A DNA stretch of 34,655 nt, from positions 1 through 34,655 of the forward strand of contig CAKZPH010000174.1 of assembly GCA_937138605.1 (NCBI GenBank), read 5' to 3'. This document shows positions 9,807-16,947 of the stretch, one piece after another. The notes below the pieces were generated by a model. It made no database searches and was not told the origin of the DNA. It saw only the letters and a list, made by a program, of their open reading frames with translations. Positions within the stretch are counted from its first letter, which is position 1, and every line of letters begins with the position of its first letter. The translations under genes were made by a program, and so were the position numbers. This DNA comes from an uncultured Ignavibacteriales bacterium (GTDB lineage: Bacteria; Bacteroidota; Ignavibacteria; Ch128b).

Positions 9807-11105
9807 TCAAGCGCGTTTAGTTGGACTGAGTGTGAAATATACTCTTGTCCATTTTCCTTTTTCACTTGCAATCCAAAAACTTTCGCCATGCATATCAATT
9901 ATAGCTTTAACAATTAATAATCCTAACCCTAATCCTTTTTCACCCATTGTCCCACGAGCTGTTAATTTTTTAGTTGATACGAGTAGATTCAATAGTATTT
10001 CACGGTCTATTCCAATTCCCGAATCTGCCACTAAAACGATGAGTTTATTTAGTTTTTCGTGAAAATGTGCATGAACTTCAATTGTGTTATCGGGATGAGA
10101 AAATTTGATTGCATTATCCAACAAATTTTTTATAACGTCAATGATCACAAACTCGTCACCATATACAAATAATTCTGGTTTAGAATTAACTATGATTTTG
10201 ATTCTTTTTGCATCTGCAAACCTTGCCATCGTCTTAACGACAAAATTAATGGTTGACGTAACATCAAAGTCAGTAGGATTCATTGTAAGATTAGAAGATT
10301 CATATCTTATCCATTCAACAATTTTGTTCAGAGCATTAAGTTGTTGTTTTGCAATATCGAAAATATTTTCTGAAAATTTTTTTACTTCCTGTTTATTTTT
10401 ATAATGACCATCTTTTAGAAGTTGAACGTAACCAAAAACACTATTTAATGGAGTGCGAAGGTCATGGGAAATTATTGAAACTAATTTGTCTCTTTGAAAA
10501 GTAACTTTCGCCAGCTCACTCTTTAATTTTTCTTGTTCCGTTTTCAAATCTTGTTTTATAAATTTTGCAACAATCGGTTGCTTGCTTTCATTTTGTTCAA
10601 TTGTTTCAATTTTAGTTTCCCTCTCATTCTTACTTAATTTTGCTTCTTCGGGCTTTTCAATTATTTCCTCTTCTATTTCCTTTTGGGTTGTTTTTGCGAC
10701 CCTTGCTTTAATTTCCTTTTTGAGTTTTGATTCTTCTTGGATAATACTTTCAGCAGGCTTGTAGAAATATCGCTCATCTATCGGATGAAAAGGGATAGTC
10801 TTTCGATTTACCATTAACTCTTTTTCTGGAGTCAAAAGGACTAATGTAATTATCAATGCTAAAATTATTGAACCAAAGAATGAAATTAATTCAAGGGGTG
10901 ATACTTTTACGAATAATGAAGGATTTGAAATGTAGTATATAAAATCTAACAATTGAAATGAAAAAACAAACAAAATTGAAACTATAATTATTGTAAATAA
11001 CCCCGCATTGTTTACTTTTTTAATTGAAATTACTGAAAGTACTATGTTTAGTATGTGTAAAACCAGAGTAATAATTATAAAAATTTTATAAAGTTCAAAC
11101 GTCAC
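9807..11105 (-). CDS. Membrane-bound sensor histidine kinase
   Basis: Three membrane helices (about residues 7-28, 36-58 and 73-92) with almost no extracytoplasmic domain are followed by a long lysine/glutamate-rich linker (about 120-205, likely coiled coil). Then come a HisKA domain with phospho-acceptor His214 in SIISHDLRTPLNSVFGY and a full HATPase domain: N box NLLDNAIKF (Asn331), G1 DSGIGID (361-367) and G2 GEKGLGLGLLIVK. The kinase thus looks active. Sensing is probably through the membrane or the linker. It is transcribed away from the NtrC-family gene, with a small FlgM-like frame between them, so the NtrC-type regulator is the natural candidate partner. That pairing is inference from position only. 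Confidence 0.92.
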   Translation of the reverse strand: MTFELYKIFIIITLVLHILNIVLSVISIKKVNNAGLFTIIIVSILFVFSFQLLDFIYYISNPSLFVKVSPLELISFFGSIILALIITLVLLTPEKELMVNRKTIPFHPIDERYFYKPAESIIQEESKLKKEIKARVAKTTQKEIEEEIIEKPEEAKLSKNERETKIETIEQNESKQPIVAKFIKQDLKTEQEKLKSELAKVTFQRDKLVSIISHDLRTPLNSVFGYVQLLKDGHYKNKQEVKKFSENIFDIAKQQLNALNKIVEWIRYESSNLTMNPTDFDVTSTINFVVKTMARFADAKRIKIIVNSKPELFVYGDEFVIIDVIKNLLDNAIKFSHPDNTIEVHAHFHEKLNKLIVLVADSGIGIDREILLNLLVSTKKLTARGTMGEKGLGLGLLIVKAIIDMHGESFWIASEKGKWTRVYFTLSPTKRA

Positions 11106-11178
11106 ACATCTCTCCGAAGAAGCTTATTTGACAAGAATATTATCGAAAAAAATAACTTCATTTTTAGAAAAAAATATT

Positions 11179-11204
11179 TAAAGAAAATTTATTATCTCCG
11201 ATAA
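11179..11204 (+). promoter_or_regulatory. Candidate sigma28 (FliA-type) promoter
   Basis: TAAAG at 11179-11183 and TCCGATAA at 11197-11204 lie 14 bases apart measured from TAAA. This is close to the known FliA/SigD pattern of TAAA, 14-16 bases, GCCGATAA/T. It faces the small FlgM-like frame starting at 11235, about 30 bases downstream. It is the only intergenic CCGATAA I found in the window, and a FliA-type sigma gene lies 3 kb further on. Sequence match only; expression is not shown. Confidence 0.5.
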
Positions 11205-11234
11205 TAATTTTGTATTAACAGAAAGTAGATAAAC

Positions 11235-11411
11235 TTGAAAGATTCTGAAATTATTAAGTTGTATTCTTCTGAAAGACCAGTCAAAGAAATCACCAGAGAT
11301 CCTTTTCAACAAATTAAATTGATTAGACTAAGGATAATTAATGGATATTATTTAGAAATTGCCCGTGTCAGAAAGATTTTAGAAAAAATTTACAATGATA
11401 TTCTTAAGTAA
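11235..11411 (+). CDS. Small FlgM-like protein, possible anti-sigma28 factor (58 aa)
   Basis: An open frame of 58 codons starting at TTG 11235 that standard length cut-offs would miss. Its C-terminal half (KLIRLRIINGYYLEIARVRK) follows the FlgM pattern of a helix with I-x-x-x-I-x-x-G-x-Y followed by a helix with conserved small and hydrophobic residues; it ends KILEKIYNDILK. FlgM holds FliA inactive until the flagellar hook is complete. A candidate sigma28 promoter stands directly upstream and a FliA-type sigma gene is in the same cluster, which is the expected feedback wiring. Weak points are the TTG start, a poor Shine-Dalgarno (GAAAG) and the short length compared with the usual 90 or so residues. 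I rate it as a likely gene with a tentative function. Confidence 0.42.
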   Translation: MKDSEIIKLYSSERPVKEITRDPFQQIKLIRLRIINGYYLEIARVRKILEKIYNDILK

Positions 11412-11577: not shown

Positions 11578-12969
11578 ATGGAAAATCGAATTCTAATCGT
11601 TGATGATGATGATCTTGTAAACATTTCACTTCAGAAGGCTCTTAAGGCAAGTGGCTTTAATGTTGATATCTGTACTAGTGGTAAACAAGCAATAAAATAC
11701 TTTGAAAATTTTTCACCTGACCTTGTGTTGCTGGACGTTTATCTTGGGGATATGAATGGGTTGGAGGTACTTAAAAAAATTTTATTGGTCGATCCAGATT
11801 TACCAGTAATTATGATTACAGGCTATGCCGAGGTTGAAACTGCAGTAAACGCAATCAAAATGGGTGCCTCAGATTTTTTATTGAAACCAATTAATTACGA
11901 ACAATTAGAAGTTCTCATACGCAAAATCTTAAAACAAATAACACTTCAAAAAGAAGTTACTCGTTTAAGAATTCTTAATAAAGAAGGGGAAATTAACCGT
12001 GAGATTTTCGGTAAAAGCAAAGTTATACAATCTACTATTAGTACAATTGAAAAGTTTGCTTTAAGTGAAGGTACAACTGTTCTAATTGAAGGTGAAAGTG
12101 GTTCGGGCAAGGAAATGATTGCTCGTTACATTCACCGTATATCAAATAGAAAAGATGGTCCTTTCATTGCGATAAATTGTGGGGCAATTCCTCGAGAATT
12201 GGCGGAAAGTGAGTTATTTGGGAGTGAAAAAGGTGCATATACTGGAGCGGGAGAAAAAACACGACTTGGTAAATTTGAACTTGCAGATGGTGGTACTTTA
12301 ATGCTTGATGAGATAAGCGAATTGAGTCTAGATTTACAGGTAAAGCTTTTGAGAGTTTTACAGGAAAAAAAGTTTTTCCGTTTAGGCGGTACTAAAGAAG
12401 TAAGTGTTAATGTGAGAATTATTGCTGCAACGAATAAAGACTTAAAGACTTTAGTTCAAAACAAAATCTTTAGAGAAGATCTATTTTATCGATTAAATGT
12501 TGTAAAAGTTTACGTACCACCTTTAAGGGAAAGAAAGGAAGATATTCCTTTTCTTGCTTACTCTTTTATCCAAGAATTTAATAAAGCTTTCAACAAAAAT
12601 GTGAAGAGAATTTCAGATGATGCACTGGAATTAATGATGAATTATTCTTGGCCCGGAAATGTCCGAGAACTGAGAAATACCATTGAGAGAGCCGTACTTT
12701 TAATGAATGGTGACGAATTAAAAATTGAACATATTAATTTTCTCGAAAGCGAAAAGTCTTATAAAGGTGACTTTCAAGATGAGTACATTCTAAATATCCC
12801 TAAGAATGGAGTAAAAATGGATCAAGTTGTTCGTGACTTAATTATCAAAACACTGGAAATTACTGATGGTAATCAGATTCAAGCTGCAAAAATTCTTGGT
12901 ATATCTAGATCTAAGCTTCGCTATAGAATGGAGCAATTAAAGGTCGAGGTTAAAAAAGAGGTTAAATAG
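11578..12969 (+). CDS. NtrC-family sigma54-dependent response regulator
   Basis: Three domains are in standard order. The receiver (1-120) has the DDDD acidic pocket, phospho-acceptor Asp53 and Lys103. The AAA+ domain (about 143-370) has Walker A GESGSGKE (172-179), the sigma54-contact loop GAYTGA (219-224, with Tyr for the more usual Phe), Walker B GGTLMLDEI, and FREDLFYRLNV. A Fis-type helix-turn-helix closes the protein (NQIQAAKILGISRSKLRYRM, about 430-450). The protein should activate sigma54 promoters when phosphorylated. A good AAGGTGAAAG precedes the ATG. The next gene overlaps by one base. Given the FliA-type gene downstream it may play the FlrC/FleR role of raising flagellar-class genes; that is inference. 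Confidence 0.95.
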   Translation: MENRILIVDDDDLVNISLQKALKASGFNVDICTSGKQAIKYFENFSPDLVLLDVYLGDMNGLEVLKKILLVDPDLPVIMITGYAEVETAVNAIKMGASDFLLKPINYEQLEVLIRKILKQITLQKEVTRLRILNKEGEINREIFGKSKVIQSTISTIEKFALSEGTTVLIEGESGSGKEMIARYIHRISNRKDGPFIAINCGAIPRELAESELFGSEKGAYTGAGEKTRLGKFELADGGTLMLDEISELSLDLQVKLLRVLQEKKFFRLGGTKEVSVNVRIIAATNKDLKTLVQNKIFREDLFYRLNVVKVYVPPLRERKEDIPFLAYSFIQEFNKAFNKNVKRISDDALELMMNYSWPGNVRELRNTIERAVLLMNGDELKIEHINFLESEKSYKGDFQDEYILNIPKNGVKMDQVVRDLIIKTLEITDGNQIQAAKILGISRSKLRYRMEQLKVEVKKEVK

Positions 12970-13697
12970 TGTCATTAGATCAAAATTTTGATTTTGATTT
13001 TACAGTTCTTGTTGTTGATGATAATCCCTTAGAATTAGGATTGATTCGATTAGTCATTAAAAAGACATTTCCTGATATTAAATTTATAGGTCTAACAAAA
13101 CCGCCCAATTGGTGCATTTACTTAAAAGAAAATGAACCGGATTTGATTATCATTGACTATCGTTTACCAGAGCGCAACGGACTTGAAGAAATTAAGGAAA
13201 TTCGAAAATACGACACTGATATACATACTTATTTAATAACTGCTCTTGAAAGGGATGAAATTGATCAAGATATCACCAAAGCCGGGGTAAATGATTTAAT
13301 TATTAAAGATAGAAATTATTCTAATTTAATAATCCGCTTAAATAGCTTGATGGTTCAAAAGTCTGCTAAACATTTGCAAGATGAATTAAAACTTTTGAAT
13401 TACATTTTAGATCAAATTCTTGATAAAGTTTTATTACAAATTGATGTTGATAAAAATTGCAAAAGAGTATTTGGTTGCGTCGATAAAATTTTTGGATTAA
13501 ATAAAGAGGATTTACTTGGTCAAAATTGGTTGAAATTCTTTAAATGTTTTTATAATAGGGACTTAAAGTCTGAATTTAATTCTCAGGAAAAAGTAGAAAA
13601 GAAAGTCGTTAAAATTGATTTTGAAAAAAGTGGCGAAGTTAAATTTTTTGATGGTTTGGAGCTCATCACAAAAAATTACCTTTTTATAGTCATCTAA
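12969..13697 (+). CDS. Response regulator with unrecognised C-terminal domain (PAS-like?)
   Basis: A receiver domain fills residues 12-122, with the acidic pair in VVDDNP, phospho-acceptor Asp63 (LIIIDYRLPERNG), Thr91 and Lys113. The remaining 120 residues hold a short helical stretch (about 125-145) and then a segment (CKRVFGCVDKIFGLNKEDLL, about 155-175) that reads like the start of a PAS fold, with no DNA-binding, GGDEF or kinase output domain visible. The start is GTG overlapping the last base of the NtrC-type gene (TAGTG), so the two are co-translated. It may act by protein contact, for example on the NtrC-type activator. The C-terminal identification is weak. Confidence 0.85.
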   Translation: MSLDQNFDFDFTVLVVDDNPLELGLIRLVIKKTFPDIKFIGLTKPPNWCIYLKENEPDLIIIDYRLPERNGLEEIKEIRKYDTDIHTYLITALERDEIDQDITKAGVNDLIIKDRNYSNLIIRLNSLMVQKSAKHLQDELKLLNYILDQILDKVLLQIDVDKNCKRVFGCVDKIFGLNKEDLLGQNWLKFFKCFYNRDLKSEFNSQEKVEKKVVKIDFEKSGEVKFFDGLELITKNYLFIVI

Positions 13698-13738
13698 CGT
13701 GTAACCCACCAATAGAATTATTATATAAAATAGTCATT

Positions 13739-13759
13739 TGGCTAATATTAGCCAGTTTT
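13739..13759 (+). terminator. Palindromic hairpin, possible terminator after the response regulator
   Basis: TGGCTAATATTAGCCA (13739-13754) is a perfect 16-base palindrome that can fold as TGGCTA/TAGCCA with an ATAT loop, followed by GTTTT. It lies 42 bases after the stop at 13697 and could end the NtrC-regulator transcript. A short T-run makes it modest; a dyad operator is the alternative. Confidence 0.45.
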
Positions 13760-13870: not shown

Positions 13871-13898
13871 CTTCAAGAATTAAAAATTGGTTTACAAA

Positions 13899-14120
13899 AT
13901 GAAGTCTCAAAAAAATAACGAATATGAAAAAACGAAAGTATTGGTTGGGTCATTGGTTATAACATTTTTAGGGTATAATACATTATACAGTTCGATAGAA
14001 AACTTTATAACGAGCTCGTTGTTACTCATTTTGGTATTGTATCTACTTGTTTATAGATGGGGGGTGAAATACTCAACTAAAAAAAGTATTACAAAAAGTT
14101 TGCTAAGAGGGCAAAAATGA
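13899..14120 (+). CDS. Small two-helix membrane protein of unknown function
   Basis: A protein of 73 residues with two hydrophobic segments (about 14-32 and 36-54), a short hydrophilic N-terminus and a basic C-terminus (KKSITKSLLRGQK). By the positive-inside rule both ends would lie in the cytoplasm. I do not recognise a family. ATG 13899 is preferred over the upstream in-frame alternative at 13887. Its stop overlaps the sigma factor start in an ATGA, so translation of the two is coupled. Such tight linkage suggests it may tether or gate the sigma factor at the membrane, but this is speculation from position and topology. Confidence 0.65.
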   Translation: MKSQKNNEYEKTKVLVGSLVITFLGYNTLYSSIENFITSSLLLILVLYLLVYRWGVKYSTKKSITKSLLRGQK

Positions 14121-14806
14121 CAACGTTAACTCTCTGGAAAGAATACAAAAAAACTCGATCACTTGATTTGAAGAGAGCATTGATTAAACAGTACTTTAAA
14201 CTAGTGTATTATGTAATTAAGAAAACAGACTTAAAGGAAGGGGATATACTTACAACAGAAGATTATTATCAATTTGGCATTTTGGGATTAAGTGAAGCAA
14301 TTGATAGATACGATCCGAAACATGGGGTTAAGTTTGAGACCTACGCCATTCCTAGAATAAGGGGAATGATTTTAGATGAGCTTCGTAAAATTGATTTCAT
14401 TCCTAGATCTGTAAAAGAATCCATTAAAAAATTTATAAAAAAAGAGAATGAAAGAAGAAAAGAGCTAGATCAAGAAAATCTTTTGTTGACTGATTATTTG
14501 AAGGAATATCAGAAAATTTCTCTCTCACAACCAGTTAACGAGGATGAAACATTATTAGACGTAATATCCTCTTCTGATGATTTGCCAATTGATATCGTAG
14601 AAAAACAAAATCTAAAAGAGGTTTTGCTCGAATTAATTGAAGTTTTATCTGAAAGGCAAAAACTTGTGATAATGCTCTATTATTATGAGGGAATGAGCTA
14701 CCAAGAAATAGCAGATGTGCTTAATGTAACTGTTTCACGTATATCACAAATTCACTCTGAAGTGATCAAGAAACTCCGATGTAAAATCAAGAAAGTTTTG
14801 AGGTAA
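14117..14806 (+). CDS. fliA: FliA/WhiG-type alternative sigma factor (sigma28 family)
   Basis: Region 2 spans about residues 18-92, with YYQFGILGLSEAIDRYDPKH (51-70) and the sigma28 hallmark VKFETYAIPRIRGMILDELR (71-90) leading into KIDFIPRSVK of region 3. Region 4 (about 165-226) has LSERQKLVIMLYYYEGMSYQ (177-196), then the helix-turn-helix EIADVLNVTVSRISQIHSEV. Length is 229 residues against about 240 for FliA. It directs RNA polymerase to flagellar, chemotaxis or developmental promoters. It is coupled by ATGA to the small membrane protein before it and is four bases from the HDOD gene after it. No structural flagellar gene is in the window, so the regulon here could be motility or something else. 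The symbol is given by family. Confidence 0.85.
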   Translation: MTTLTLWKEYKKTRSLDLKRALIKQYFKLVYYVIKKTDLKEGDILTTEDYYQFGILGLSEAIDRYDPKHGVKFETYAIPRIRGMILDELRKIDFIPRSVKESIKKFIKKENERRKELDQENLLLTDYLKEYQKISLSQPVNEDETLLDVISSSDDLPIDIVEKQNLKEVLLELIEVLSERQKLVIMLYYYEGMSYQEIADVLNVTVSRISQIHSEVIKKLRCKIKKVLR

Positions 14807-14809
14807 AAT

Positions 14810-15667
14810 ATGTTGAGTTTAAGGAATAGTAACAGAAAACTGACCGTTGACTTCTTTCCTGGACTACAACCTATATCGAATGATGTTATTAATTCAATTA
14901 ATGACCCTCAAATAACACCTAAACAATTAGCACAAATTATTAGTAAGGATCAAGGTTTAGTTCTAAAAATTTTAGCTATAGCTAACTCTCCCGCATATGG
15001 ATTTTTCAGAAAAGTTTCAACCGTTGAGATGGCAATATCTCTTTTAGGTGTGGAAATGATTAAAGATTTAGTTTTAAGTTTCTCTATACAAAATATTTCA
15101 AACAATCGAGATTCTATGTATTTCTCTCAAAAAGCCTTTAATAATCATGCTTTGCTTACGGGTTTTGTTTCTCAAATTTTAGCGAATGATTTTCTTTATG
15201 ATTCAAAAAATGAAGCTTTTGTTGCGGGATTACTTCATGATGTTGGAATTGCAATAATAAACAGTTTTTTTAGTAAAGAATTTCGCTTAATATGTGAATT
15301 AAAGTTTTATAGAAAGATTTGTCAAAGTAAAGCAGAAGAGCTTATTCTTGGAAAGAATCATTCCGAAATTGGTGCTGCAGTTTTAGAAAAATGGTACTTC
15401 TCTGAATTATTGATCGATGTTGTTAAAAACCATCATATCCCATCGCAAAGTAAAGTAAATCCCAAACTTTCTGCAATCGTACATTTGGCTGATCACATAA
15501 CCTCCACTCTTCAATCTCCATTTTTAATAAATGATGAGCTCGAGGAATTAGACCTAGAGGTGCTAAAAATTCTCAGAATCCCAGATGAGTCATTCCTTTA
15601 TGAAATAATTAATAGTATAAAGCTCATAACTAATAGCAACTTTAAAGAATTGATGTGCATGGAGTAG
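14810..15667 (+). CDS. HDOD domain protein
   Basis: The HDOD signature runs through residues 15-210: FPGLQPISNDVINSIND, ISKDQGLVLKILAIANSPAY (45-64), and STVEMAISLLGVEMIKDLVL (70-89). HD-like residues are retained: His113, His143-Asp144 in GLLHDVG, His184, His208-His209 and Asp228. HDOD proteins are signalling adaptors that often sit with two-component or cyclic-di-GMP circuits, and most have no shown catalytic activity. The gene starts three bases after the fliA stop and is followed almost at once by the kinase-like gene, so it belongs to the sigma operon. It could transmit a state to the sigma factor or the relay proteins. That role is inferred. Confidence 0.9.
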   Translation: MLSLRNSNRKLTVDFFPGLQPISNDVINSINDPQITPKQLAQIISKDQGLVLKILAIANSPAYGFFRKVSTVEMAISLLGVEMIKDLVLSFSIQNISNNRDSMYFSQKAFNNHALLTGFVSQILANDFLYDSKNEAFVAGLLHDVGIAIINSFFSKEFRLICELKFYRKICQSKAEELILGKNHSEIGAAVLEKWYFSELLIDVVKNHHIPSQSKVNPKLSAIVHLADHITSTLQSPFLINDELEELDLEVLKILRIPDESFLYEIINSIKLITNSNFKELMCME

Positions 15668-15669
15668 GA

Positions 15670-16947
15670 ATGCAAGTTAACAACATTAAAATATTTGACG
15701 ATTTTGACTACGAATTCGAAAATGAATCAATTAAAAAATCGGATATCTTTGAAAGTAATTTAAGCAAACTTGCATTTATGGAATTCATGACCGAAATAAA
15801 TAAACTAGCAAATTCTATAAATGATTTGAATGAATTATTCATTTCTCTTCTTGAAAATATTAAAAGGATTTTTTCTTTTTCGAAATATAATGTTGTTGTT
15901 TTTAGTCAAAACGTGAAACTCTATTCAAACGATAATTTCGATTATGAACTAAACTCTTTCTTAATAAATTCTGGAATACTTAAGCTAATAATGAGTGAGA
16001 AAAAACCAGTCTTAATTCCTGATCCTGAAAAATATTCTGTTACAAATAATGTTTATCTTCTAATAATTCCATTTTTTTCCTCAGCCGGCTATTTTGGTTT
16101 GGTTTGTTTTAATACAAATTTTTCAAAGGCTGAAATTTCTAAGGAAATCGTTCTCTTAATAGAATTAGCGACAAAAATTATTGGAAATAAAGCATTAGCT
16201 ATTATCATTGATCAAAATTTGAAAGTAGAAAATGAAAAGAATGAATTTATGATGAAAAATTTATACGATTTCAAAAAATATGTGGCTATTGGAGAATTGT
16301 GTACATCCTCTTTCCACGACTTGAAAAATCGCACACAAATTTTGTTAAGTTCAGTTGATTTAGTAAAAAAGCTTGATTTAAGAAAGGAGCCTGAAAAAAT
16401 TTGCACAGTCGTAAATATTATGGCAAACGAAATCCCAAAATTTTCAAAAACCATTCGGATGATTTCGGATGTTTCAAAGAATTTGCTAAGTGATAAATCC
16501 ATTGTATATACTAATATTTACGATATAATCACTGAATTAAAAGAAACACTTGAAACGACTCAAATCACAAAGAAACTTCACATTAACATCTCTAAAAAGT
16601 ATGATGGTATCAAGATATTTGGAAGTCCCAATTCAATTTTTGAAGTATTATTTCTATTGTTAAATGAAATAAACAAAGCAGTTACAAATCAAATAGGGGT
16701 TGAATTTTCAATTTCAGAATATAGTAAAAGAGTTAGTATTAACTTAAGTATAAAGATTGATGAAATCAGTAGAGAAGAAATATTTAACTTTGTTGACGAA
16801 AATCATAATCTTAATTTTGTTATGATAAAAAGGATTATTAAAACATTAAATGGTACTATTGTTACTGACTTTAATGAGAATGGACTAACAATCATTTTAG
16901 ATTTGCCAAAGCGAAGTGGCATGAAACGAAGAATAAATGAAGCTTGA
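15670..16947 (+). CDS. Histidine-kinase-like protein with degenerate ATP-binding domain
   Basis: The N-terminus (about 35-180) has the length and strand pattern of a GAF-type sensor domain without membrane helices. A helical HisKA-like domain follows with a clear H box, AIGELCTSSFHDLKNRTQIL (207-226, His216). The C-terminal 120 residues line up with a HATPase domain: an N-box-like LLNEINKAV (330-338) is present, but no DxGxG (G1) motif follows, and the lid region reads NHNLNFVMIKRII without the GxGLG glycines. ATP binding is therefore doubtful. ATG 15670 is chosen over GTG 15655 because GGAG lies five bases ahead. It is within a tight operon with HDOD, receiver and REC-HisKA genes and may work as a scaffold, phosphatase or phosphotransfer partner. 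Confidence 0.82.
   Translation: MQVNNIKIFDDFDYEFENESIKKSDIFESNLSKLAFMEFMTEINKLANSINDLNELFISLLENIKRIFSFSKYNVVVFSQNVKLYSNDNFDYELNSFLINSGILKLIMSEKKPVLIPDPEKYSVTNNVYLLIIPFFSSAGYFGLVCFNTNFSKAEISKEIVLLIELATKIIGNKALAIIIDQNLKVENEKNEFMMKNLYDFKKYVAIGELCTSSFHDLKNRTQILLSSVDLVKKLDLRKEPEKICTVVNIMANEIPKFSKTIRMISDVSKNLLSDKSIVYTNIYDIITELKETLETTQITKKLHINISKKYDGIKIFGSPNSIFEVLFLLLNEINKAVTNQIGVEFSISEYSKRVSINLSIKIDEISREEIFNFVDENHNLNFVMIKRIIKTLNGTIVTDFNENGLTIILDLPKRSGMKRRINEA

Follow-up and report, generated by a model that had tools for sequence, protein, structure and literature searches.

A diverged, shortened FlgM-like gene with a candidate sigma28-type promoter in a family of Ignavibacteria in which neither FlhA nor flagellin was found

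FlgM, the textbook anti-sigma factor that is controlled by being pumped from the cell, leaves in the usual loop through the finished hook-basal body, its N-terminal half serving export and its C-terminal half binding sigma28 (FliA). In the non-flagellated Legionella oakridgensis, only FliA and FlgM remain, with flgM dependent on sigma28, and FlgM is apparently degraded according to growth phase and temperature (Tlapak et al. 2017, as reviewed in PMC5655016). Partner switching between HsbA and FlgM in Pseudomonas aeruginosa is a further instance of export-free FlgM control (PMC5085249). FlgM, FliA and the survival of both without flagella are thus already known. An anti-sigma factor of a different kind from FlgM is the c-di-GMP-responsive RsiG; PDB entry 6pfj, the closest solved structure by sequence to the sigma factor of the present locus, is, together with 6pfv, the Streptomyces WhiG-RsiG complex.

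In the present study, we analysed a stretch of 34,655 nt (the window; contig CAKZPH010000174.1, assembly GCA_937138605.1) from an uncultured Ignavibacteriales bacterium. The reading that we favour, at a probability of roughly 0.83, is that a diverged and shortened FlgM encoded there would silence the FliA encoded 2.7 kb downstream, that FliA in turn would drive flgM, and that, the flagellum having been lost, the release of FlgM would be free of export. It builds on homology, synteny, promoter conservation and the observed absence of flagellin and FlhA, from which we infer binding, inhibition, promoter activity and the route of release.

The small gene is a frame of 58 codons on the forward strand (11235..11411, starting with TTG, stop at 11411), assigned by conservation, profile searches and predicted helices, and its product is MKDSEIIKLYSSERPVKEITRDPFQQIKLIRLRIINGYYLEIARVRKILEKIYNDILK (58 residues). 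Alignment and predicted helices both place in it a C-terminal two-helix region carrying I..+I..G[FY]Y; in the structure prediction, for which the input alignment contained FlgMs of the class, the helices span residues 23-35 and 42-57 with a pLDDT of about 95, and the N-terminus is of low confidence. Scanned alone against Pfam and NCBIfam, the frame gave no match to PF04316 or TIGR03824 at E<=10, and a PDB fold search with its two-helix model returned no match, so that the predicted structure lends the assignment little weight. SYK kinase fragments that came up in a PDB profile search with the frame family were rejected as chance matches. A single-sequence search gave one weak match of note outside the window (36% over 47 residues, E 0.027); it is syntenic, with the fliA orthologue of its own genome 2.7 kb further downstream.

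All six genomes of the family that we examined, representing three genera, carry an orthologue of the frame, as the preliminary description had proposed looking for in relatives, and where the contig reaches far enough its position is unchanged. Comparison with the corresponding regions of the five other genomes gave a common order of divergent kinase, small gene, sigma54-type regulator, second regulator and fliA; four of these five have a stop-to-stop frame of 64-72 residues between kinase and regulator, and in the fifth (G004), where the contig is short at the locus, the copy lies on a separate contig. TTG is the first plausible start in 6/6, which may partly account for the small gene being overlooked. 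The orthologues share little sequence with the window frame (16-31% identity), and the DK[LI]EIS segment, together with about 20 N-terminal residues of flagellar FlgMs, is missing from all six. Four family genomes also have a frame of 336-386 codons between flgM and the sigma54 regulator (e.g., L043 10895-11911; L044-L046), missing from the window and from G003, which, judged by eye, apparently encodes a degenerate kinase-like protein.

The connection to established FlgMs was obtained with a profile (A1) made from an alignment of five family frames, containing no known FlgM, with which we scanned 294 genomes of the class. It reached frames of about 79-104 codons in other families (E 4e-7 to 1.6e-5), of which 24 were read out and aligned with the six family frames. 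Among these 30 members, 23 matched the Pfam FlgM model PF04316 and 17 matched TIGR03824; because the family frame alone scans without a match, the matching members are most likely the outside frames, 23 of 24 of which are apparently FlgM by Pfam. Profile-profile comparison of the family with the 23 class FlgMs gave E=1e-12 across the C-terminal 36 columns. Against a model of these 23 FlgMs the window frame scored 18.5 bits, the lowest of the six, and the other five 22.8-33.0, compared with a top score among 2000 shuffles of 12.6 for any of the six frames and 8.6 for the window frame. The FlgM-like C-terminal pattern first noticed by eye in the 58-codon frame is therefore borne out. A direct PF04316 scan of the frame misses it, and only the searches by way of its orthologues succeed in reaching FlgM; the suggestion of a missed FlgM homologue accordingly stands on its retention in six genomes and on the class FlgMs reached by the orthologue profile. 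To judge from sequence, the frame encodes an orthologue of FlgM that has diverged and has an N-terminus shorter by about 20 residues, since family conservation, profile matches to class FlgMs and a shared sigma54 regulator downstream all point the same way. A further FlgM-like frame with an atypical N-terminus was seen in another family of the class (L101, genome G172), possibly a second case of the same kind.

For genomes of this class the curated FlgM profile lacks sensitivity. PF04316 gave no match at E<=0.001 in the six family genomes and matched in only 4 of 61 class genomes, though FlhA was found in 18, and the A1 profile finds many more FlgMs. The four loci that PF04316 found independently have as neighbours either a kinase gene or flagellar genes of the cap and chaperone types.

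Upstream of the small gene lies a sigma28 (FliA)-type element on the forward strand (11179..11204, TAAAGAAAATTTATTATCTCCGATAA), composed of TAAA-N14-TCCGATAA with the extended -10 CCGATAATA and ending 30 nt before the TTG at 11235. Its overall length is 26 nt versus 27 nt in the five orthologues, the spacer being one base shorter. The strict pattern TAAA-N13-16-CCGATAA occurs once in the window, in keeping with the initial remark that no other intergenic CCGATAA had been noticed, and a looser pattern yields only weaker matches. The sigma28-like spacing described at the outset is not peculiar to the window, for in 6/6 family genomes the orthologue is preceded by the same element at a distance of 30-80 nt. 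The strict pattern has 6-36 copies per family genome, near the level of the reversed control in several, and the chance of meeting it in a given stretch of 100 nt is 1.4e-4 to 4.6e-4 per genome, the genomes being related and hence non-independent. The promoter model scored 20-22 bits in four of the six genomes with p about 0.003, which is the floor for 300 shuffles and comes from a model built from these same sites. Because the strict pattern is rare per genome and yet lies within 100 nt upstream in 6/6, the promoter before the small gene exceeds chance, and we regard 11179-11204 as a putative FliA-dependent promoter. That the open frame and the promoter match are both accidental, as a short frame in AT-rich DNA without a Pfam match might suggest, is contradicted by the conservation of the frame, its profile homology and its synteny, and we give this explanation next to no credence.

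On the other side of the small gene, a histidine kinase gene with HisKA and HATPase_c domains (9807..11105, reverse strand; 46-56% identical in four other family genomes) is transcribed divergently. Although the promoter model was expected to find nothing here, the gene having been chosen as a negative control, it proved to carry a similar, weaker element (11138..11166, reverse strand, TAAA-N16-TCGATAATA): in 5/5 family genomes examined, TTCGATAAT precedes the kinase gene by 36-46 nt, individually significant in the window alone (p 0.002). The regulator orthologues behaved as a negative control in the scoring, and the regions upstream of fliA were mostly negative (window p 0.026); sigma54 promoters, sought before fliA, were not found. 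Between the divergent genes, at 11139-11206 of the window, the ATTATCGAA/CCGATAAT elements are inverted, with a spacing of 59-61 bp in four family genomes. This inverted arrangement and near-constant spacing of two -10-like elements would also suit operator half-sites, in which case the CCGATAAT/ATTATCGA elements would bind a regulator and the small protein could still be FlgM. We consider it improbable, given that in 6/6 the element before flgM has a TAAA upstream at sigma28 spacing, and that elsewhere in the family unrelated genes are preceded by TAAA/CCGATAA pairs of a comparable kind.

Such pairs provide a first glimpse of a wider candidate regulon. When the other copies of the strict pattern were read (for G002 and G004, a part of the matches), most lay inside long genes and were discarded; the intergenic copies stand before sensor kinases and a secreted YCF48-repeat protein, among others. 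The kinase genes bearing the element are restricted to one or two genera. The gene for the YCF48-repeat protein, which has a T9SS sorting domain, gave one strong match per genome in 6/6 (63-82% identity to the query) and weak ones elsewhere, and a sigma28-like element, its spacer 13 bases long in some, precedes it in all six (L312-L317; shuffle p 0.001-0.022). Beyond flgM, FliA probably transcribes the divergently oriented histidine kinase gene as well, and with it a small number of others.

Downstream of the small gene, on the forward strand, follow a sigma54-activating response regulator (11578..12969, REC-AAA-Fis by its domains, with orthologues in relatives) and a second response regulator (12969..13697, conserved in the family, its C-terminal portion unassigned). 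A possible intrinsic terminator at 13738..13755 would separate the unit of flgM and the two regulators from that of fliA, such sites being no commoner than in shuffles. The second unit begins with a small protein of 77 aa just before fliA, probably a membrane protein (13887..14120), and continues with a FliA/WhiG-type sigma28 factor of 229 aa (14117..14806; 60-65% identical within the family), an HDOD protein (14810..15667) and a protein similar to the GAF/histidine-kinase gene found downstream of fliA-HDOD in flagellar clusters (15655..16947). FliA was found as a single copy in each of the six family genomes. The sigma factor matches TIGR02479 at 7.8e-49 with 166 bits against a cut-off of 189.6, and its Sigma70_r2 and r4 domains are above cut-off; we therefore take it as a FliA homologue falling just under the curated subfamily score. 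With its start at 14117 it lies, as announced in the preliminary description, 2.7 kb past the stop of the frame, and the idea put forward there that promoter, small protein and sigma factor belong together is strengthened by their occurrence as one conserved unit in the family.

Parts of this arrangement are met among relatives. In 8 of 16 flgM loci of other families, an orthologue of the regulator at 11578-12969 (50-60% identity over its length) follows flgM on the same strand, at a gap of about 0.8 kb in six loci, at least some with a kinase gene between, and of about 2.8 kb in two. Downstream of fliA, flagellated relatives have HDOD genes, which stand in the same place as the HDOD gene of the window, and a GAF/kinase gene, again in the order of the window. 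In the one flagellar cluster that was read fully, fliA comes after a small membrane protein and flhB, flhA, flhF and flhG, these four being named by eye, and a frame of 90 aa in a flagellated relative occupies the position of the 77-aa protein. Since the flgM-regulator order is shared with relatives of other families and the fliA-HDOD-GAF order with flagellar clusters, the locus is most readily understood as what is left, on the regulatory side, of two flagellar clusters.

The flagellum itself appears to have gone. FlhA (PF00771) was found in 0/6 family genomes versus 18 of 55 other genomes of the class, and flagellin (PF00669) in 0/6 versus 4/4 comparison genomes, the family genomes being drafts of up to 540 contigs with completeness of 88-100%. 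Therefore, release of FlgM by flagellar export would be impossible in the family. The draft state of all assemblies, up to 540 contigs, could be held to favour a canonical loop in which flagella are built, FlgM is exported and the structural genes were lost in assembly gaps. We judge this very improbable, as both FlhA and flagellin would have to be missing 6/6 at such completeness in a class where 18 of 55 other genomes do show FlhA, and as the frame is devoid of the DK[LI]EIS segment and the roughly 20 N-terminal residues of flagellar FlgMs. Of the usual feedback loop supposed in the preliminary description, the transcriptional half, in which FliA drives flgM and FlgM holds FliA, may well operate; the export half falls with FlhA and flagellin. 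Elsewhere in the class, genome G011 combines a FliA homologue with three matches to flagellin and none to FlhA, owing either to a gap in its assembly or to a flagellar system that is only partial.

One might equally suppose that the FlgM-like gene is a decaying relic of flagella that now regulates nothing, with its 16-31% identity to the window frame within the family and an N-terminal half stripped of recognisable motifs. A relic, however, would hardly keep an open frame and a conserved TTG start in six genomes of three genera, and retain both its promoter and the sigma-binding signature at the C-terminus, next to a well conserved FliA, and we think it improbable too. In the favoured export-free reading, RNA polymerase containing FliA would transcribe flgM, so that FliA brings about the synthesis of its own inhibitor; the C-terminal helices of FlgM would bind FliA and keep it inactive, closing a negative feedback; and a signal would then remove or capture FlgM, setting FliA free. 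Release would most likely proceed through regulated loss of FlgM by degradation, as put forward for L. oakridgensis, or through its capture by a signalling partner encoded nearby, for which the neighbouring conserved kinase and sigma54 regulator are, by position, candidate signal sources. The best reading is that the sigma28/FlgM switch outlived the flagellum and may now control signalling and surface genes. A more specific version, in which FliA drives flgM, the divergent kinase and the T9SS-secreted YCF48-repeat protein, and an FlgM trimmed of its export part is released by a cytoplasmic two-component signal, is tentative, and we would put it somewhat below even odds.

In the open literature searched, we did not meet a family-wide case of this kind in Ignavibacteria, combining an FlgM that is trimmed and escapes profile detection with a candidate surface and sensor regulon. 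Its significance is that a flagellum-free FliA-FlgM pair throughout a family would be a natural system without the export step, in which one can ask by what other routes FlgM is released, how much of FlgM the binding of sigma by itself requires, and what task is left to a flagellar sigma factor when there is no longer a flagellum. A further suggestion is that many FlgMs of Ignavibacteria escape the standard profiles.

Compared with FlgM (PF04316, TIGR03824) and FliA of flagellated bacteria, other Ignavibacteria included, the family shares the sigma-binding signature I..+I..G[FY]Y....V...EKI, the link to a FliA-type sigma factor, the order flgM-(kinase)-sigma54 regulator and a sigma28-type promoter; it differs in a frame about 20 residues shorter N-terminally, devoid of DK[LI]EIS and below profile detection, in a host genome without flagellin or FlhA, and, unlike most flgM genes of the class, beside which the strict scan finds no such promoter, in an adjacent sigma28-type promoter of its own. 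The WhiG-RsiG pair likewise uses a FliA/WhiG-type sigma factor outside flagella, but the family frame is FlgM-like and shows, by eye, no RsiG-type motif. With HsbA-FlgM of P. aeruginosa it would have in common that FlgM is controlled by a signalling protein, beyond export alone, whereas that control acts on top of flagellar regulation. The nearest counterpart is L. oakridgensis, in which the flagellum is likewise absent, FliA and FlgM are retained and release must be export-free; yet that is a single species of a genus with many flagellated members, whereas here every examined member of an Ignavibacteria family is concerned, its FlgM being strongly diverged and the two-component genes around it conserved.
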